Assembly: GCA_026985525.1 (NCBI GenBank)
Contig: JALSQI010000022.1
Coordinates: 1 to 48,305 of the forward strand
Source of the DNA: Archaeoglobaceae archaeon
GTDB lineage: Archaea; Halobacteriota; Archaeoglobi; Archaeoglobales; Archaeoglobaceae
Direction: 5' to 3'
DNA: 48,305 bases
Of the stretch, positions 3,123 to 9,257 are shown piece after piece (positions within the stretch are counted from its first letter, which is position 1; every line of letters begins with the position of its first letter). A program made the position numbers and the translations under genes. The notes under the pieces were generated by a model. The model was given only the letters and a program-made list of their open reading frames with translations. It was not told where the DNA came from and made no database searches.

Positions 3123-3458
3123 TTAAACCACTTTAACTTCTTTTTCACCCTCCCAAAGTCCGTGCTTGTTGCAGTAAGCTAAGGCAACGATTTTTCCGCT
3201 TCTCTCTAGCTTAACTTTTAAAGTTACGTCTGGGCTTACAAATTCCGAAAAAGCAGATCTGGAAAGCATTATTGGGTTGAAATCTCTACCCTCCTCCTCA
3301 AAGTAAACTTCTATCCACCTTATAGAATGTTCCGTTTTATTCGGATGTCCACTGACGTAAACTCTCAATTCGAACTCTTCACCAGCTTTAACTTCCTCTG
3401 GGCATTCAATAACTGGCTTGTGATTTTTTGCCTTCTCACCTTCAGAATAAATCATCAT
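3123..3458 (-). CDS. Superoxide reductase, one-iron type (neelaredoxin)
   Basis: Reduces superoxide to hydrogen peroxide at a mononuclear iron centre, normally with rubredoxin as donor. At 111-112 residues it has only the SOR domain and lacks the N-terminal desulforedoxin domain of two-iron desulfoferrodoxins. Ligands are visible: EGEKAKNHKP gives the Glu/Lys pair and the first His, GHPNKTEHSIRW two further His, and YCNKHGLW the Cys and last His. The start is ATG 3458 (followed by a second ATG), preceded by GGAGGTG at six bases; further upstream codons run into the rubrerythrin gene and are not family-like. It lies 26 bases after rubrerythrin and is probably in the same transcript. Confidence 0.93.
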   Translation of the reverse strand: MMIYSEGEKAKNHKPVIECPEEVKAGEEFELRVYVSGHPNKTEHSIRWIEVYFEEEGRDFNPIMLSRSAFSEFVSPDVTLKVKLERSGKIVALAYCNKHGLWEGEKEVKVV

Positions 3459-3484
3459 TTTCAACACCTCCTTAATACTCAAAT

Positions 3485-4048
3485 TTATATACTCAACAGA
3501 TCCATAGCTACGTAATACGCTTTTGGATGACCACAACTTGGACACTTTTCTGGTGGTTCTTTACCGTAGTGAACGTAACCACATTCCAAGCAAACCCAAG
3601 CGACCTCTTCATCTCTTTTGAAGAATCCCTTCTCAATCGTTTCGAGTACTTTCTTATACCTCTCTTCGTGGTGAACTTCTGCTTTGGCTATAGCCCTAAG
3701 CCTCTCTGCTATTTCGCTGTACCCTTCCTCTTCAGCAATTTTTGCGAATTCGGGATACATCTTAGTGTGTTCGTAATTTTCTCCCTCTATTGCCGTTTTT
3801 AGGTTTTCAACCGTGTTTCCAAGCTTAATGGGTAATTCTGCTTCAATTTTTACTACATTTCCCTCAAATTCCTGCATCATTTCCATCAAAGTTTCTGCGT
3901 GTTCTTTTTCATTTTCAGCCGTTTCCAGAAACAGCTTAGATACAAAAACGTACCCCTCTTCTTTTGCAACTTTGGCGTAGAAAGTGTACCTATTTCTCGC
4001 CATACTTTCTCCGGCAAAAGCCGTTGCGAGACTCTCAAGCGTCTTCAA
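3485..4048 (-). CDS. Rubrerythrin
   Basis: Non-heme diiron peroxidase that detoxifies hydrogen peroxide, taking electrons from rubredoxin or NAD(P)H reductases. The diiron domain shows the expected Glu/His pattern: [38 protein letters not shown] and EVHHEERYK. The C-terminal rubredoxin-like domain carries [21 protein letters not shown], four Cys for one iron. I chose TTG 4048 (187 residues) because AAGGGGTG lies six bases upstream and the protein then begins [15 protein letters not shown], like family members; GTG 4057 would overlap the ribosome site. It follows the peroxiredoxin by about 80 bases and precedes the superoxide reductase, forming one oxygen-defence group. Confidence 0.95.
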
Positions 4049-4130
4049 ACACAACACCCCTTAATTAATTTTTGTTCACGTACAAAAAATGCACCAAATA
4101 CCCCTCATCATCAAAAAATTAGTTAAGTAG

Positions 4131-4787
4131 TTAAAGTTTCTTGAAGCAGAGCCACCAATCGTAACACTCTATTTCTCCTGCTTTTGCTTTTTCTAATCTT
4201 TCTTTAGCCGTTTTCTCGTCAGTAGCGGGTGGTATAATCACTTTGTTTCCAATTAGCTCGTTGTTAGGCCAGTTTGCAGGTAAAGCGACTCCGTTCTCGT
4301 CACTAACTTGCAAACCTTTAACCATTCTCAGTATCTCATCCATGTTTCTTCCAAGTTCTTGCGGGTAGTAAAGCATAGCTCTAACTATACCTCTCGGGTC
4401 GATTATGAAAACGGCTCTTACTGTATTCGTACCCTTGTTGGGGTGAATCATACCGTACATCTCAGCTATTTTACCTCTGTCGTCTGCTATTATGGGGAAA
4501 GGAATCTCGACTCCAAGTTTTTCTTTTATCCACTCAGCCCACTTTATGTGGCTAAATACTTGGTCTATGCTAAGCCCTATAAGCTCGCAGTTCAGTTTTT
4601 TGAACTCTTCGTATCTCTTTGCAAAAGCGACGAATTCAGTTGTACAAACTGGCGTGAAATCTGCGGGATGAGAGAATAGTACGACCCACTTACCCTCGTA
4701 ATCCTTTGGAAACTCTATCATGCCCTTAGTCGTTAGAGCTTTGAATTCTGGTGCTTTTTCACCTAACAACGGCATACCTACACACAT
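4131..4787 (-). CDS. Peroxiredoxin (archaeal Prx6-type thioredoxin peroxidase)
   Basis: Reduces hydrogen peroxide and alkyl hydroperoxides. The peroxidatic Cys is C48 in DFTPVCTTE; two further Cys, C208 and C214 (ECYDWWLC), sit in the C-terminal tail, the same arrangement as in the well-studied decameric archaeal enzymes where they act as resolving residues. Conserved Arg/Trp positions and the FIIDPRG strand are present, and the 218-residue length is typical of archaeal Prx6-like proteins. ATG 4787 has no Shine-Dalgarno site and an AT-rich box about 25 bases away, so a leaderless message is likely. It is divergent from an Lrp-type regulator across an 87-base region with palindromes, which makes that regulator a candidate controller. 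Confidence 0.95.
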
Positions 4788-4820
4788 GTTTTGAACTTAT
4801 TACTAATAAAATAAAAAAGT

Positions 4821-4857
4821 TTCGTACGATTTTCGAACAAATAGTATATATACTCAA
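4821..4857. promoter_or_regulatory. Palindromes in the shared Prx / Lrp promoter region
   Basis: Between the two divergent genes are TCGTACGA (4822-4829, perfect palindrome), TTCGAA (4832-4837) and AGTATATATACT (about 4843-4854, perfect 12-base palindrome). The last one is also the TATA box for the regulator gene, about 25 bases before its ATG at 4875. A dimeric Lrp-type protein bound here could block its own promoter and affect the peroxiredoxin promoter. The palindromes are seen; the regulatory role is inferred. Confidence 0.45.
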
Positions 4858-4874
4858 GTGTAAATTGTTGCTTA

Positions 4875-5291
4875 ATGGACAGTAGAGATAAAACGATACT
4901 AAAAATATTAATGGAAAATGCCAGAACACCAAAAACGAAGATAGCAAAAACTTTAAAGATTACTGAAACTGCTGTAAGGAAGAGAATAGCTAAATTAGAG
5001 AAAAATAAGGTTATTTTAGGTTACAAAGCAATTATCAATTACAAAACTACAGGTTTGTCTGCGTCAATAACTGGTATCGATGTTGAACCTGAAAAACTGT
5101 GGAGGGTTATATCGGAACTAAAAGAAATAGAGGAAATAAAGTCTATAATGCTGACTACGGGAGATCACATGATAATGTTAGAAATTGTATCTGAATCTGT
5201 TGACGATTTGAGCGAAATACACAAAAAGATAGAAAAGATGGACGGCGTAAAAAGAATATGTCCGGCTATAATCCTTGACGTCTTGAAGTAA
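4875..5291 (+). CDS. Lrp/AsnC-family transcriptional regulator
   Basis: A 138-residue regulator with the full two-domain Lrp plan: an N-terminal winged helix (DKTILKILMENARTPKTKIA, then ITETAVRKRIAKLEKN as recognition helix) and a C-terminal RAM ligand/oligomer domain (ASITGIDVEP...TGDHMIMLEIVSES...KRICPAII). Such proteins usually form octamers that sense amino acids or related small molecules, but several archaeal ones control redox genes. It is divergent from peroxiredoxin, and AGTATATATACT about 25 bases before the ATG suggests a leaderless message with possible autoregulation. Which effector it binds cannot be told. Confidence 0.9.
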   Translation: MDSRDKTILKILMENARTPKTKIAKTLKITETAVRKRIAKLEKNKVILGYKAIINYKTTGLSASITGIDVEPEKLWRVISELKEIEEIKSIMLTTGDHMIMLEIVSESVDDLSEIHKKIEKMDGVKRICPAIILDVLK

Positions 5292-5308: not shown

Positions 5309-5827
5309 TCAGATAAAACCCAACTCTCTCGCCTTTTTCAAAACAGCTTCAACTTCCTCCTCGACGCTCATTTCATTTGTGTTTAACTTCAGCTCTGGAT
5401 TCTCTGGTTCTTCGTATTCGCCATCAAAACCTGTTAGCCCTTTAATCTCACCACTAATTGCTTTTTTGTATAAGCCCTTTGGATCTCTCTTAACTCTCAC
5501 TTCGAGAGGGCAGGTTAAGTAAACTTCCATAAATTTCTCTATTTCTCTTCTTGCATACTCTCTAAAAGACTTGTATGGGGCTATAACAGAAACAATTGTT
5601 ACAATTCCATTCCTCGCTAAGGTTTCTGCCATGTGAACGACAACTCTGTTGTGCATTTCTCTCTCTTCTCTGCTAAAACCTAAGTCTGGGTAAAGCTTAC
5701 TTCTTACGCTATCTCCATCTAAGATTTCAACGTTGAATCCCATTTCCTCCAACTTTTCGTGTAACGCTTTAGCGAGAGTAGATTTACCCACACCACTTGG
5801 ACCAGTGATCCATATTACGAAGCTCAT
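5309..5827 (-). CDS. cysC: Adenylylsulfate (APS) kinase
   Basis: Phosphorylates adenosine 5'-phosphosulfate on the 3' hydroxyl to give PAPS. The P-loop GPSGVGKST lies near residue 8, ILDGDSVRS is the APS/Mg loop, LYPDLGFSREEREMHNRVV is the signature APS-binding segment and KGLYKKAISGEIKGLTG the lid region with the Lys-Gly-Leu-Tyr motif. Length (172 residues) is normal for a stand-alone CysC. The start is ATG 5827, overlapping the upstream stop as ATGA, with GGGGAG as ribosome site; longer in-frame forms run into the upstream gene. It ends a five-gene operon. In a sulfate reducer APS is normally reduced directly, so PAPS production here points to biosynthetic sulfation or another PAPS use (inference). 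Confidence 0.93.
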   Translation of the reverse strand: MSFVIWITGPSGVGKSTLAKALHEKLEEMGFNVEILDGDSVRSKLYPDLGFSREEREMHNRVVVHMAETLARNGIVTIVSVIAPYKSFREYARREIEKFMEVYLTCPLEVRVKRDPKGLYKKAISGEIKGLTGFDGEYEEPENPELKLNTNEMSVEEEVEAVLKKARELGFI

Positions 5828-7179
5828 AAGATTGCTCCCCTCAGTCCAAACTTTTCGGGGTTTAATCCAAACAACCTTAGTACGGTTGGACAAAATTTGT
5901 ATATGTCAGTTACAATTTCTCTTCCTTCAACTTCATTCAGCTTTAAAGAGAAAACTCCGTATTCGGAATGAACTGCATCGTCTGGCCCCGTATCGTTCTC
6001 TAATAGGTAAGGTGTTTCGTAACCGAGAGTGCCGGCTGATCTCCAGTATAAGTCATCAAAGTAAACGATCATGTCTGGTTTATCCCCTCTGCATTCTGGG
6101 TATATTTCTTCTGGATAGAAAACCTTCGTGTTCCACTTTTCTCCGTTTGGTCCCTTTATACTCTTAACCATCTCTGTTATCTCGTCTCTAACCTTCTCGT
6201 ATTCGGATTTCCTAATTATTCCTTCTTTTTCTCTTCCTTTAACGTTCAGAAATATCCTTGCGTAATACCCTCCCCAAGCCCAAGCAACTGTTTTACTCCA
6301 ATCAACGTCAAGTTGTTCGAATTTTGTGGGTTTATCTATACTGCCCCTCACTTTGAGCAATCCCTCTTCTATCAACCACTGGTTTATTGCAAAACAACCT
6401 TTCATCTTTTTTATTCCGTGATCTGAAACGATTAAAACTGCAGTATCTTCATCCAAAAGCTTTAGAGTTTTTCCAATTTCTCTATCCAGCAACTTGTAGT
6501 ATTCTGGTATTACCTTGCTAAACTCGTTTTTTACATGTAGGTGATGAGTCTCATCAAAGTACTTCCAGAAAGCATGGTGAATTCTGTCAAGTCCAATTTC
6601 CACGAATTCAAAGTAATCCCAGTCTTTCGTTTCTATCATGTATCTTATTAATTCAAACCTTTTTTTTGTCATTTCCCAAACTTCTTCAACTACTGCACTT
6701 CTATCCTCTTTTCTGAATACGACGTCGAAAACGTAACCGCCTGTAACTTTTTCCACTTCTCTTTTGAGCTCTTTTGGATACGTGTAGTTGACACTGCTGT
6801 CGGGAGTTATAAAGCAGGAAACCAACCATCCGTTAACTTTTTTTGGAGGATATGACGGAGGCACACCTATCAAAACAGACTTTTTTGGGGAAATGTAATC
6901 CCAAACTGCTTTTTCCTTAACCATGAGGCTGTGAGCTATCCATATGTCCTTATACGAATAACCTTTTCTGTGTCTAAATCCGTAAAGTCCAAGCTCTCCC
7001 GGTGTTTTTCCAGTTGCCATGCACATCCAAGCAGGAATAGTTATTGCAGGAATAGAACTCTTCATTGGGCCATGAATTGAGTTTTCAACGATTTTCCTTA
7101 TGTTTGGTAAATCTTTCAAAAACTTTCCAAATAGAAGTTCTGGTGGTGCGGAATCCAAACCTATTACAAAAACTTTCAT
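5824..7179 (-). CDS. Alkaline-phosphatase-superfamily phosphohydrolase (nucleotide pyrophosphatase/phosphodiesterase type)
   Basis: A 451-residue member of the AP superfamily. FVIGLDSAPPELL holds the first metal Asp, SIPAITIPAWMCMATGKTPGELGLYGF holds the nucleophile Thr (about residue 47) in the pattern of NPP enzymes, GLDRIHHAFW the second-metal Asp/His and VSDHG the Asp-His pair; a final His is in DDAVHSEYG. There is no signal peptide and no membrane segment, so it is cytoplasmic. Family members cleave phosphodiesters, phosphonates or sulfates; the exact substrate is open. Its ATG overlaps the DHH gene stop (ATGA) and its stop overlaps the APS kinase ATG, so it is coupled to both. A role with APS, PAPS or a lipid head group fits the context but is not proved. 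Confidence 0.8.
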   Translation of the reverse strand: MKVFVIGLDSAPPELLFGKFLKDLPNIRKIVENSIHGPMKSSIPAITIPAWMCMATGKTPGELGLYGFRHRKGYSYKDIWIAHSLMVKEKAVWDYISPKKSVLIGVPPSYPPKKVNGWLVSCFITPDSSVNYTYPKELKREVEKVTGGYVFDVVFRKEDRSAVVEEVWEMTKKRFELIRYMIETKDWDYFEFVEIGLDRIHHAFWKYFDETHHLHVKNEFSKVIPEYYKLLDREIGKTLKLLDEDTAVLIVSDHGIKKMKGCFAINQWLIEEGLLKVRGSIDKPTKFEQLDVDWSKTVAWAWGGYYARIFLNVKGREKEGIIRKSEYEKVRDEITEMVKSIKGPNGEKWNTKVFYPEEIYPECRGDKPDMIVYFDDLYWRSAGTLGYETPYLLENDTGPDDAVHSEYGVFSLKLNEVEGREIVTDIYKFCPTVLRLFGLNPEKFGLRGAIL

Positions 7180-8126
7180 TCTACCACCTCTGAATTCAAA
7201 AATTTCTCTATCTCCTCTACAACGAGCTTCAACTTGTCTTCTCCCTCAAAAACGCTACCTAAGACTTCAGCTTTTCCTCCAGCGTTTACACCAATAAGCC
7301 TTAACTTTTCTATTAAGTTTTTCATTTTCTCGTTTCCTTTAGAAATTCTAAGGTAAACTTGATACTTCCCGTTAAATCCCCTATTAATTGCTAAGCATGC
7401 TTTTGCTCCTTTATTCCAAACGAGCTCTCTCGCAACTCTCGATATTATTGAATTAGGTGAGTAAAATTCTACTCTTGCTATTCCTCTTTCTATTCTTGCT
7501 GATTTAACGATTCTACTTACTTCGCTCTCTATATCCCTAAGTTTCTCTATCCACTCATCTCTACTTAATATGTCGTCTATCTCTGCATTCAGTAAGTAAA
7601 AAACAGCTTCTTCAACTCCATATCTGTCGAGAGTTAAGTGGTTACAATCTACGAGTTTTACTGCTTTAATTATTTCTTTTTTGCTAATTCCTTCTATATC
7701 CAATATTTTCTCAGCTCTTTCTCCAAAATCCTCGACTTCGAATAGTTTCTCTCCCAAATCTCCCACTCCACCAAGCACGGTTAAGTAGGATTCGTGGTTA
7801 AATAGCTCCGAAACGAGGAAACTTGCAGATGGGTAGGGTTTGTTATAATACTCTATTTTTTCGTGTTTTATTGGTTTTTGTATATGATGATCTATAAAAA
7901 TGGCTTTAGATATTATTCCTCTATTGGCTAAATCTACGACAGCTTCAGGCATGTTTAAATCGATAAAGTATGATAGCTTAGACGAATATACACCGCTTTC
8001 TATTCTGGGATCAAACTTGAACTCTCCTATTGGCGGTGTGAAAGCTGGCAACCTACCCCTTTCTTTCATAACTATTGCTGCAGAGCTAATTCCATCTGCA
8101 TCCCAGTGATGTACTACTATTTCCAT
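7176..8126 (-). CDS. DHH-family phosphoesterase (RecJ/NrnA-like, with DHHA1 domain)
   Basis: A 316-residue Mn-dependent phosphoesterase. Domain 1 carries VHHWDADGISSAA (motif I), YFIDLNMPE (motif II), FIDHHI (the DHH motif) and GGVGDLGEK (motif IV). The C-terminal DHHA1 domain ends with NAGGKAEVLGS, where the usual GGH of RNases reads GGK. Family members degrade short oligoribonucleotides, act as single-strand exonucleases, or dephosphorylate pAp (3'-phosphoadenosine 5'-phosphate). It sits in an operon with APS kinase, so a pAp-recycling activity is an attractive guess, but the sequence alone does not separate this from an RNase. It abuts the phosphatidyltransferase gene and overlaps the next gene by four bases. 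Confidence 0.85.
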   Translation of the reverse strand: MEIVVHHWDADGISSAAIVMKERGRLPAFTPPIGEFKFDPRIESGVYSSKLSYFIDLNMPEAVVDLANRGIISKAIFIDHHIQKPIKHEKIEYYNKPYPSASFLVSELFNHESYLTVLGGVGDLGEKLFEVEDFGERAEKILDIEGISKKEIIKAVKLVDCNHLTLDRYGVEEAVFYLLNAEIDDILSRDEWIEKLRDIESEVSRIVKSARIERGIARVEFYSPNSIISRVARELVWNKGAKACLAINRGFNGKYQVYLRISKGNEKMKNLIEKLRLIGVNAGGKAEVLGSVFEGEDKLKLVVEEIEKFLNSEVVE

Positions 8127-8681
8127 TCAACCACCTCTTTTCAGAGTGTAAGCAGTTCTGTGAACTGCAGTTATATGGGCTATTATAGCTACGACTATTA
8201 AAGAATAATATACGTATCCACTCAACAATCCCAAAACTACTATTAATAGTCTTTCACTCCTCTCTCCTATTCCTACGTCACACTTATCTATTACGTGTTC
8301 AGCCCTCGCTCTTGTATAACTGACGAGTAATGCTCCGGTAACCGCTAACATAGCTACAAGCCACTTTCCAGTATAATAACCCAAAGCTGTGAATATTGCA
8401 ACGTCAACATATCTATCAAAAACGGAGTCGAGAAAACCACCAAGTGGAGAAACTTTTCCACAATTCCTGGCTAAAGCTCCGTCAAGCATGTCCATGAAAC
8501 CGCTAAGCAGTATAAAGACCGAACCCAGAAATGGTTTAGAGTTCGCAATCATTAAAGCTGATGCAATTCCTAATAAAAGTCCCGCAAGCGTGAGGTGATT
8601 TGGTTTAACGCCTGCAGAACATAAAAACTTAGTTAAAGGCTTTAAAAATCTCGTCGTGTGAACTTTAATTCTGCTCAACAT
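8127..8681 (-). CDS. CDP-alcohol phosphatidyltransferase (archaetidylinositol-phosphate-synthase-like)
   Basis: An integral membrane enzyme that moves a phospho-archaeol group from CDP-archaeol to an alcohol. The diagnostic motif reads DMLDGALARNCGKVSPLGGF followed by LDSVFDRYVD, matching DG(x)2AR(x)8G(x)3D(x)3D and placing the four metal-binding Asp. About six hydrophobic helices follow in 184 residues. Archaeal members of this size use L-myo-inositol 1-phosphate or glycerophosphate; the inositol phosphate version is likely in an organism rich in inositol lipids and solutes, which I infer from the presumed Archaeoglobales origin. The start ATG 8681 follows the regulator gene at three bases. 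It is the only membrane protein of the operon. Confidence 0.85.
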   Translation of the reverse strand: MLSRIKVHTTRFLKPLTKFLCSAGVKPNHLTLAGLLLGIASALMIANSKPFLGSVFILLSGFMDMLDGALARNCGKVSPLGGFLDSVFDRYVDVAIFTALGYYTGKWLVAMLAVTGALLVSYTRARAEHVIDKCDVGIGERSERLLIVVLGLLSGYVYYSLIVVAIIAHITAVHRTAYTLKRGG

Positions 8682-8684
8682 GTT

Positions 8685-9257
8685 TTATTTCCATATTTTA
8701 CCCCTGTAATGCCCCGTGACGGGGCATCCAAGACAGAGTTCGTTTATCCAGTAATCGCACTCACTGCAGTTTGATCCACAAGAAGGTTTTTCAGCTCTTT
8801 CTATGTGAATCTTCATTGGAATTATCGTGTCTCTCTCAGCCCTTACAACTATTCCCACGTCTATATCGTAAACATCTGGACTTGGCCTGATGTGTTGATC
8901 GACTATCGCTTCAAGAGTTGACAGATCTTCGCCTATGAAAAGCATCATGAGGTTTCTATTACCTGCAACCACAAATCCATTTAAAAAGAATGGGCACCCC
9001 TCAAAGAGTTTTAACAGCTCTCTTGGCTGTCTGCACTTTATGTCCACTTTCAAAATGTATAAGCCCGGATTTTTTATATTTATGCCATAAGCGTGATTTA
9101 TTATTCCAAGTTCCTTCATCTTCTTTATTCTTGCACCCACCGAAGGTTGTGATAGTCCTACTATTTTTGCTATTTCGTTCTGAGACATTTCGGGGTTTTC
9201 TTCAAGAATTTCCAGAATCATCTTATCTTTTTCATCAAGTTCAAACATGCCAGCCAT
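8685..9257 (-). CDS. Lrp/AsnC-family regulator with C-terminal cysteine cluster
   Basis: 190 residues. An N-terminal winged helix (DEKDKMILEILEENPEMSQ, recognition helix in LSQPSVGARIKKMKELGI) is followed by an Lrp-type alpha/beta domain. The unusual part is the tail: PSCGSNCSECDYWINELC followed by LGCPVTGHYRG, five Cys in a C-x3-C-x2-C-x7-C-x2-C pattern that could hold zinc or an Fe-S cluster. This makes a metal-, sulfur- or redox-sensing regulator likely. The start is ATG 9257, with GGGGAT six bases upstream; TTTATAATTTAA upstream looks like the operon TATA box. It heads the operon that ends in APS kinase and so may control sulfate activation or lipid genes. Confidence 0.85.
   Translation of the reverse strand: MAGMFELDEKDKMILEILEENPEMSQNEIAKIVGLSQPSVGARIKKMKELGIINHAYGINIKNPGLYILKVDIKCRQPRELLKLFEGCPFFLNGFVVAGNRNLMMLFIGEDLSTLEAIVDQHIRPSPDVYDIDVGIVVRAERDTIIPMKIHIERAEKPSCGSNCSECDYWINELCLGCPVTGHYRGKIWK

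Follow-up and report, generated by a model that had tools for sequence, protein, structure and literature searches.

Why should an archaeon expected to reduce adenosine 5'-phosphosulfate (APS) directly also encode an APS kinase, and why should the kinase gene lie in a tightly packed operon with a gene for membrane lipid synthesis? The question is raised by a minus-strand run of five genes (positions 9257-5309) in a window of 48,305 nucleotides, the whole stretch of DNA analysed here (contig JALSQI010000022.1, assembly GCA_026985525.1). The source is an Archaeoglobaceae metagenome-assembled genome (MAG; G000 in our set) of 1.34 Mb and 95% completeness, and its near relatives are also Archaeoglobaceae MAGs. 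From upstream to downstream, the genes encode an Lrp-type regulator, a probable archaetidylinositol-phosphate synthase (AIPS), a DHH phosphoesterase (DHH), an alkaline-phosphatase-superfamily phosphodiesterase (AP) and APS kinase (CysC). A first-pass annotation had described the same five genes, with positions and overlaps that our coordinates and family matches bear out, and had proposed a module for sulfation dependent on 3'-phosphoadenosine 5'-phosphosulfate (PAPS), or for turnover of PAPS and its by-product 3'-phosphoadenosine 5'-phosphate (pAp), possibly directed at lipids. We conclude, with a probability of roughly 0.8, that the core of the run, DHH-AP-CysC (8126-5309), represents the known archaeal cluster for PAPS synthesis and pAp recycling, and that it lies downstream of a separate housekeeping pair, Lrp-AIPS.

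A probable PAPS synthesis and pAp-recycling core

The DHH protein scores 28.1 bits against the DHH profile, exactly at the cut-off, and 24.1 bits against DHHA1. Its nearest solved structure is 8A8K, the PAP phosphatase of Methanothermococcus thermolithotrophicus (MtPAPP), which it matches with 220 bits over residues 3-295 at about 42% identity. In an alignment with MtPAPP and 23 relatives, the metal-ligand positions HHWDADG (HxDxD), DLN, DHH and GD are kept, as are the Arg of YLRI/YFRI and the NAGGK sequence (GGK motif). The pAp phosphatase of P. yayanosii (PyapApase) requires R259, G285 and K287 for activity (PMC8268124), and equivalents of all three are present here; pAp phosphatase has been reported from 168 archaea (PMC10322725). 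It is thus well supported, by homology and conserved catalytic residues, that the DHH protein is a predicted pAp phosphatase of the archaeal MtPAPP/PyapApase group. This lends support to the earlier idea of a PAPS/pAp-turnover module containing such an enzyme; the accompanying label 'NrnA type' was only loosely right, the protein belonging to the archaeal group and not to bacterial NrnA.

The identity of CysC is clear from its matches to APS_kinase (196 bits) and TIGR00455 (228 bits against a cut-off of 138.7), and its nearest solved structures are the archaeal APS kinases 7YQ0 (286 bits) and 8A8H (264 bits). Between the DHH and CysC genes lies that for AP, in which D9, T47, D198, H202, D253, H254 and H404 are invariant among 29 aligned sequences; from general knowledge of the family, we take these residues to be metal ligands and nucleophile. 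Hydropathy shows no membrane helix in AP, which is predicted to be cytosolic. Its profile gave no match to solved structures, and no homologues were found in viral contigs. Among genomes of the order that are at least 85% complete, close orthologues of AP co-occur with CysC: both are present in 28, AP only in 1, CysC only in 3 and neither in 13 (Fisher p ~1e-7, with no correction for shared ancestry). Genera g13 and g4 lack cysC. As to substrate, TON_1705, whose gene is at the AP position of the T. onnurineus cluster, is reported as a pyrophosphatase, and a table in PMC9653972, citing Lee 2009, gives it a kcat of 2.1 /s and a Km of 18.8 uM on PPi. AP probably hydrolyses pyrophosphate (PPi) or a nucleotide by-product.

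The first-pass annotation had staked its proposal in part on the gene order being kept in relatives, and this is what the Archaeoglobales loci show. AP adjoins CysC in 30 of 34 loci from relatives, one of these copies being a remnant, and 23 of the loci have DHH. The order DHH-AP-CysC, or AP-CysC, recurs where identities have fallen to 64-84% for AP and CysC and to 33-74% for DHH; retention among relatives so diverged is therefore more than chance. DHH-AP-CysC holds across Archaeoglobales, and a CopG-DHH-AP-CysC-TauE set is also found in another order of the class (G172). Some features are accessory or variable: a CopG homologue lies near the cluster in 22/34 loci and in none of this genus, and an ATP sulfurylase gene (sat) lies within it in 8/34, this locus not among them. 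Since its presence varies in this way, we do not take an in-cluster sat to be essential.

These data suggest a pathway in which ATP sulfurylase, encoded elsewhere in the genome, would form APS and PPi, CysC would phosphorylate APS to PAPS, a PAPS-using enzyme would release the toxic by-product pAp, and the DHH protein would convert pAp to AMP and phosphate. AP would most likely remove PPi, pulling APS formation, or else a related nucleotide by-product. Throughout this genus, DHH-AP-CysC lies directly downstream of AIPS and has no counterpart of the CopG regulator of other genera.

Several points weigh against this interpretation. No PAPS consumer was found, which leaves a pathway with a missing step. 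The link between AP and TON_1705 rests on cluster position and not on sequence alignment, and the AlphaFold model of AP is poor (pLDDT 59), so that its weak fold matches to ENPP6 and autotaxin are a hint only. In addition, divergence within the set is greatest for the DHH protein of this genus, which has 32-44% identity to other genera as against 64-78% for AP and CysC, and may have a shifted substrate. We also considered whether it is a foreign replacement and set this aside as unproven: evolution is fast throughout the family, with most genus pairs at 38-54%, and no catalytic position has been lost. A different role for AP also has to be weighed, namely that of a control valve on PAPS which degrades APS, PAPS or dinucleotides instead of PPi. 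AP belongs to PF01663, the nucleotide pyrophosphatase/phosphodiesterase family, and its active-site residues are intact, which would suit such a role, as would the ENPP6 and autotaxin matches of the low-confidence model, but the low-Km hydrolysis of PPi attributed to TON_1705 points away from it, and we regard the valve as rather unlikely. The features of the run are collected in Table 1.

Table 1. The five minus-strand genes, listed from upstream to downstream, with window positions and the matches that identify them.
Feature	Position	Strand	Basis
Lrp/AsnC-type helix-turn-helix (HTH) regulator, Cys-rich C-terminal tail	8685..9257	-	HTH_24/AsnC-type matches
AIPS, CDP-alcohol phosphatidyltransferase, membrane protein	8127..8681	-	CDP-OH_P_transf (PF01066) 65 bits; NF040950 179.9 bits (cut-off 180); motif DxxDGxxAR...GxxxDxxxD (by inspection); hydrophobic helices
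DHH-DHHA1 predicted pAp phosphatase, MtPAPP/PyapApase group	7176..8126	-	PDB 8A8K 220 bits; motifs kept
AP, type I phosphodiesterase/nucleotide pyrophosphatase, predicted cytosolic, probable PPi or nucleotide by-product hydrolase	5824..7179	-	Phosphodiest (PF01663) 150 bits
APS kinase (CysC), 172 aa from ATG at 5827	5309..5827	-	TIGR00455 228 bits; PDB 7yq0, 8a8h

The genes are closely packed, with 3 nt between Lrp and AIPS, direct abutment (0 nt) of AIPS and DHH, and overlaps of 4 nt (-4, ATGA) at both DHH-AP and AP-CysC. Purine-rich, Shine-Dalgarno-like stretches lie 5' of DHH (gaggtgg), AP (gaggtgg) and CysC (gagggga). Directly downstream of cysC, window positions 3123-5291 hold an oxidative-stress run (a desulfoferrodoxin-like open reading frame (ORF), rubrerythrin and peroxiredoxin) together with another Lrp-type regulator on the opposite strand, and one genus member (L051) has retained these neighbours. 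PADLOC returned nothing relevant.

The Lrp-AIPS pair and lipid sulfation

The phosphatidyltransferase encoded second in the operon, whose PDB relatives are AF2299/PIPS, was the reason for suspecting a lipid target. AIPS is nearly universal in the order, being found in 56/57 genomes, including genera that lack CysC. In 22 of the 24 loci examined outside this genus, it comes after the same Lrp gene, elsewhere than cysC, and that Lrp gene, at 62-96% identity beside AIPS in most Archaeoglobales, is more conserved than AIPS itself. Contact between AIPS and DHH occurs only in this genus, in all six of its genomes, with Lrp upstream of AIPS in 3/6. As Lrp and AIPS form a pair of their own throughout the order and meet the PAPS genes in this genus only, the operon is, judged by sequence comparison, Lrp-AIPS joined to DHH-AP-CysC, that is, two known blocks. 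Co-transcription with a lipid gene then reflects a local rearrangement; it does not point to lipid sulfation, and the proposed lipid link is not supported. Such a link would mean that PAPS serves to sulfate a polar lipid, be it the AIPS product or another, and that co-transcription reflects a shared pathway. The constant AIPS-DHH adjacency within the genus speaks for this, but it is highly improbable given how widely AIPS occurs without cysC, its pairing with Lrp at sites apart from cysC in those other genera, and the failure to find a sulfotransferase: three Pfam families (PF13469, PF00685 and PF03567; other sulfotransferase types lie outside the reach of this search) gave no match in the source genome or its genus. 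This absence, like the others we report for the source genome, rests on family searches. A suggestive operon thus resolves into a published module and an unrelated lipid-gene pair, which shows that operon context alone can mislead.

The Lrp protein has a Cys-rich C-terminal tail, in which five Cys are invariant in 26 aligned sequences. This regulator could provide metal- or redox-sensing control of inositol-lipid synthesis.

Candidate fates of PAPS

The expectation that the organism reduces APS directly was sound. In the source genome sat lies on another contig (G000:C75), where the first part of AprA adjoins it at the contig end. Two genus members carry full AprA (1050-1059 bits against a cut-off of 642) with the APS-type Gln, matching Gln145 of A. 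fulgidus; in APS reductases this residue is said to clash with the 3'-phosphate of PAPS (PMC10322725). With sat and an AprA of this type, direct APS reduction is therefore expected. Genera g7, g8 and g9 have no dissimilatory AprA over the cut-off, and g7 and g8 still keep the PAPS cluster with its own sat. Because Ferroglobus/Geoglobus-like genomes retain the cluster and its sat without dissimilatory aprA over the cut-off, PAPS there is not tied to sulfate respiration. Sulfate respiration has no need of a PAPS pathway, yet Archaeoglobales maintain one, even members without dissimilatory APS reductase. In G025 (G025:C1:94792-97699), and in equivalents in G023 and G026-G029, sat adjoins an AprA-like ORF of ~520 aa that scores far below the aprA cut-off; the genomes concerned are Ferroglobus/Geoglobus-like and otherwise without dissimilatory aprA. 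This ORF may encode a different kind of APS or PAPS reductase.

One conceivable use of PAPS is assimilatory reduction to sulfite by a PAPS reductase. Methanothermococcus offers a precedent, in which the same kinase and pAp phosphatase accompany a PAPS reductase resembling AprAB (PMC10322725), and the source genome does encode a protein with a PF01507 domain (G000:C32). No canonical APS/PAPS reductase was found in it over the equivalog cut-off, however, and G000:C32, its only PF01507 protein over the cut-off, belongs to PRK08576, a hypothetical, uncharacterised family. We rejected this protein as a PAPS reductase because it falls far short of every APS/PAPS reductase cut-off, with 32 bits against 165 for cysH and 28 against 235 for APS_reductase. 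A Methanothermococcus-like role for AprAB was likewise rejected, since the AprA of genus members carries the APS-type Gln. Moreover, dissimilatory sulfate reduction should by itself already supply such an organism with sulfide. Taken together, we consider assimilatory reduction improbable.

A better lead comes from relatives in which cysC has other neighbours. In G001, G006 and G021 (loci L071, L059 and L063), cysC has no AP gene beside it and is followed by an ABC-2 polysaccharide exporter pair. Near cysC, G006 has sulfotransferase-like and glycosyltransferase genes and G021 has dTDP-sugar genes, the glycosyltransferase and dTDP-sugar names being read from sequence. Fragments at L071 resemble the C-terminal part of the G006 sulfotransferase-like protein; the source genome and its genus yielded no sulfotransferase of the three Pfam families. 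In A. fulgidus, the lipid-linked oligosaccharide carries 0 or 1 sulfate (PMC8342417). Because cysC stands beside an exporter in relatives and this oligosaccharide is sulfated, surface-glycan sulfation is our best lead for the PAPS sink. PAPS would feed a sulfotransferase that modifies the lipid-linked oligosaccharide (the N-glycan lipid carrier) or an exported polysaccharide, an idea compatible with a PAPS/pAp-recycling core that also fits the retention of cluster and sat without dissimilatory aprA described above. The lack of a sulfotransferase match in the source genome and genus, and of glycan genes beside the cluster here, keeps it a little short of an even chance. A more elaborate version, in which a sulfate reducer turns some of its APS into PAPS to supply a sulfotransferase from a family not yet described, whose target is a surface glycan, the lipid carrier of that glycan or an inositol lipid, with the PAPS genes placed in this genus under the Cys-rich Lrp regulator of inositol-lipid synthesis, seems to us a distinctly long shot. 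Most Archaeoglobales are without a recognisable PAPS-using enzyme; the exporter-linked cysC genes and the sulfated A. fulgidus oligosaccharide make the use of PAPS a testable question.

Comparison with known archaeal systems

Each block of the operon has close counterparts elsewhere. CysC matches the archaeal APS kinases 7YQ0 and 8A8H over its full length, including the P-loop and APS-site region, with no notable difference. In G001 (L071; G001:C1:266656-267147) the cysC frame stops early, at 155 aa, with in-frame stops under the profile; the solved chain 7YQ0 has the same sequence up to that stop but runs to 175 residues. With MtPAPP (8A8K), the DHH protein shares near full-length homology, the metal ligands, the Arg and the NAGGK motif, and differs in its ~42% identity and in that its gene adjoins the AP gene, in a genome with dissimilatory-type sulfate-reduction genes. 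AIPS (NF040950) and its Lrp partner form the same two-gene pair as elsewhere in Archaeoglobales, except that in this genus they lie directly upstream of DHH-AP-CysC.

The closest parallel is the cluster of Thermococcales and Ferroglobus, and the first-pass annotation was right in pointing to comparable sets of genes around APS kinase elsewhere among archaea. In P. yayanosii (PYCH_17520-17560) the order is sat-DHH-phosphodiesterase-APS kinase with a CopG regulator and a TauE neighbour, and the same figure names Ferroglobus ferp_2428-2433 and A. fulgidus AF_0291 (PMC8268124); in T. onnurineus, TON_1704-1707 are described as APS kinase, pyrophosphatase, PAP phosphatase and ATP sulfurylase (PMC4463584). 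The arrangement CopG-(Sat)-DHH-AP-CysC-(TauE) in other genera of our set reproduces this published cluster. The present locus has its hallmarks, an APS kinase gene, a DHH pAp phosphatase homologue and a type I phosphodiesterase gene between them, in the same order and orientation, whereas the in-cluster sat, the upstream CopG regulator and TauE have no counterpart here and Lrp-AIPS precedes the cluster instead. The locus adds one more example of a module already known, in an arrangement specific to this genus.

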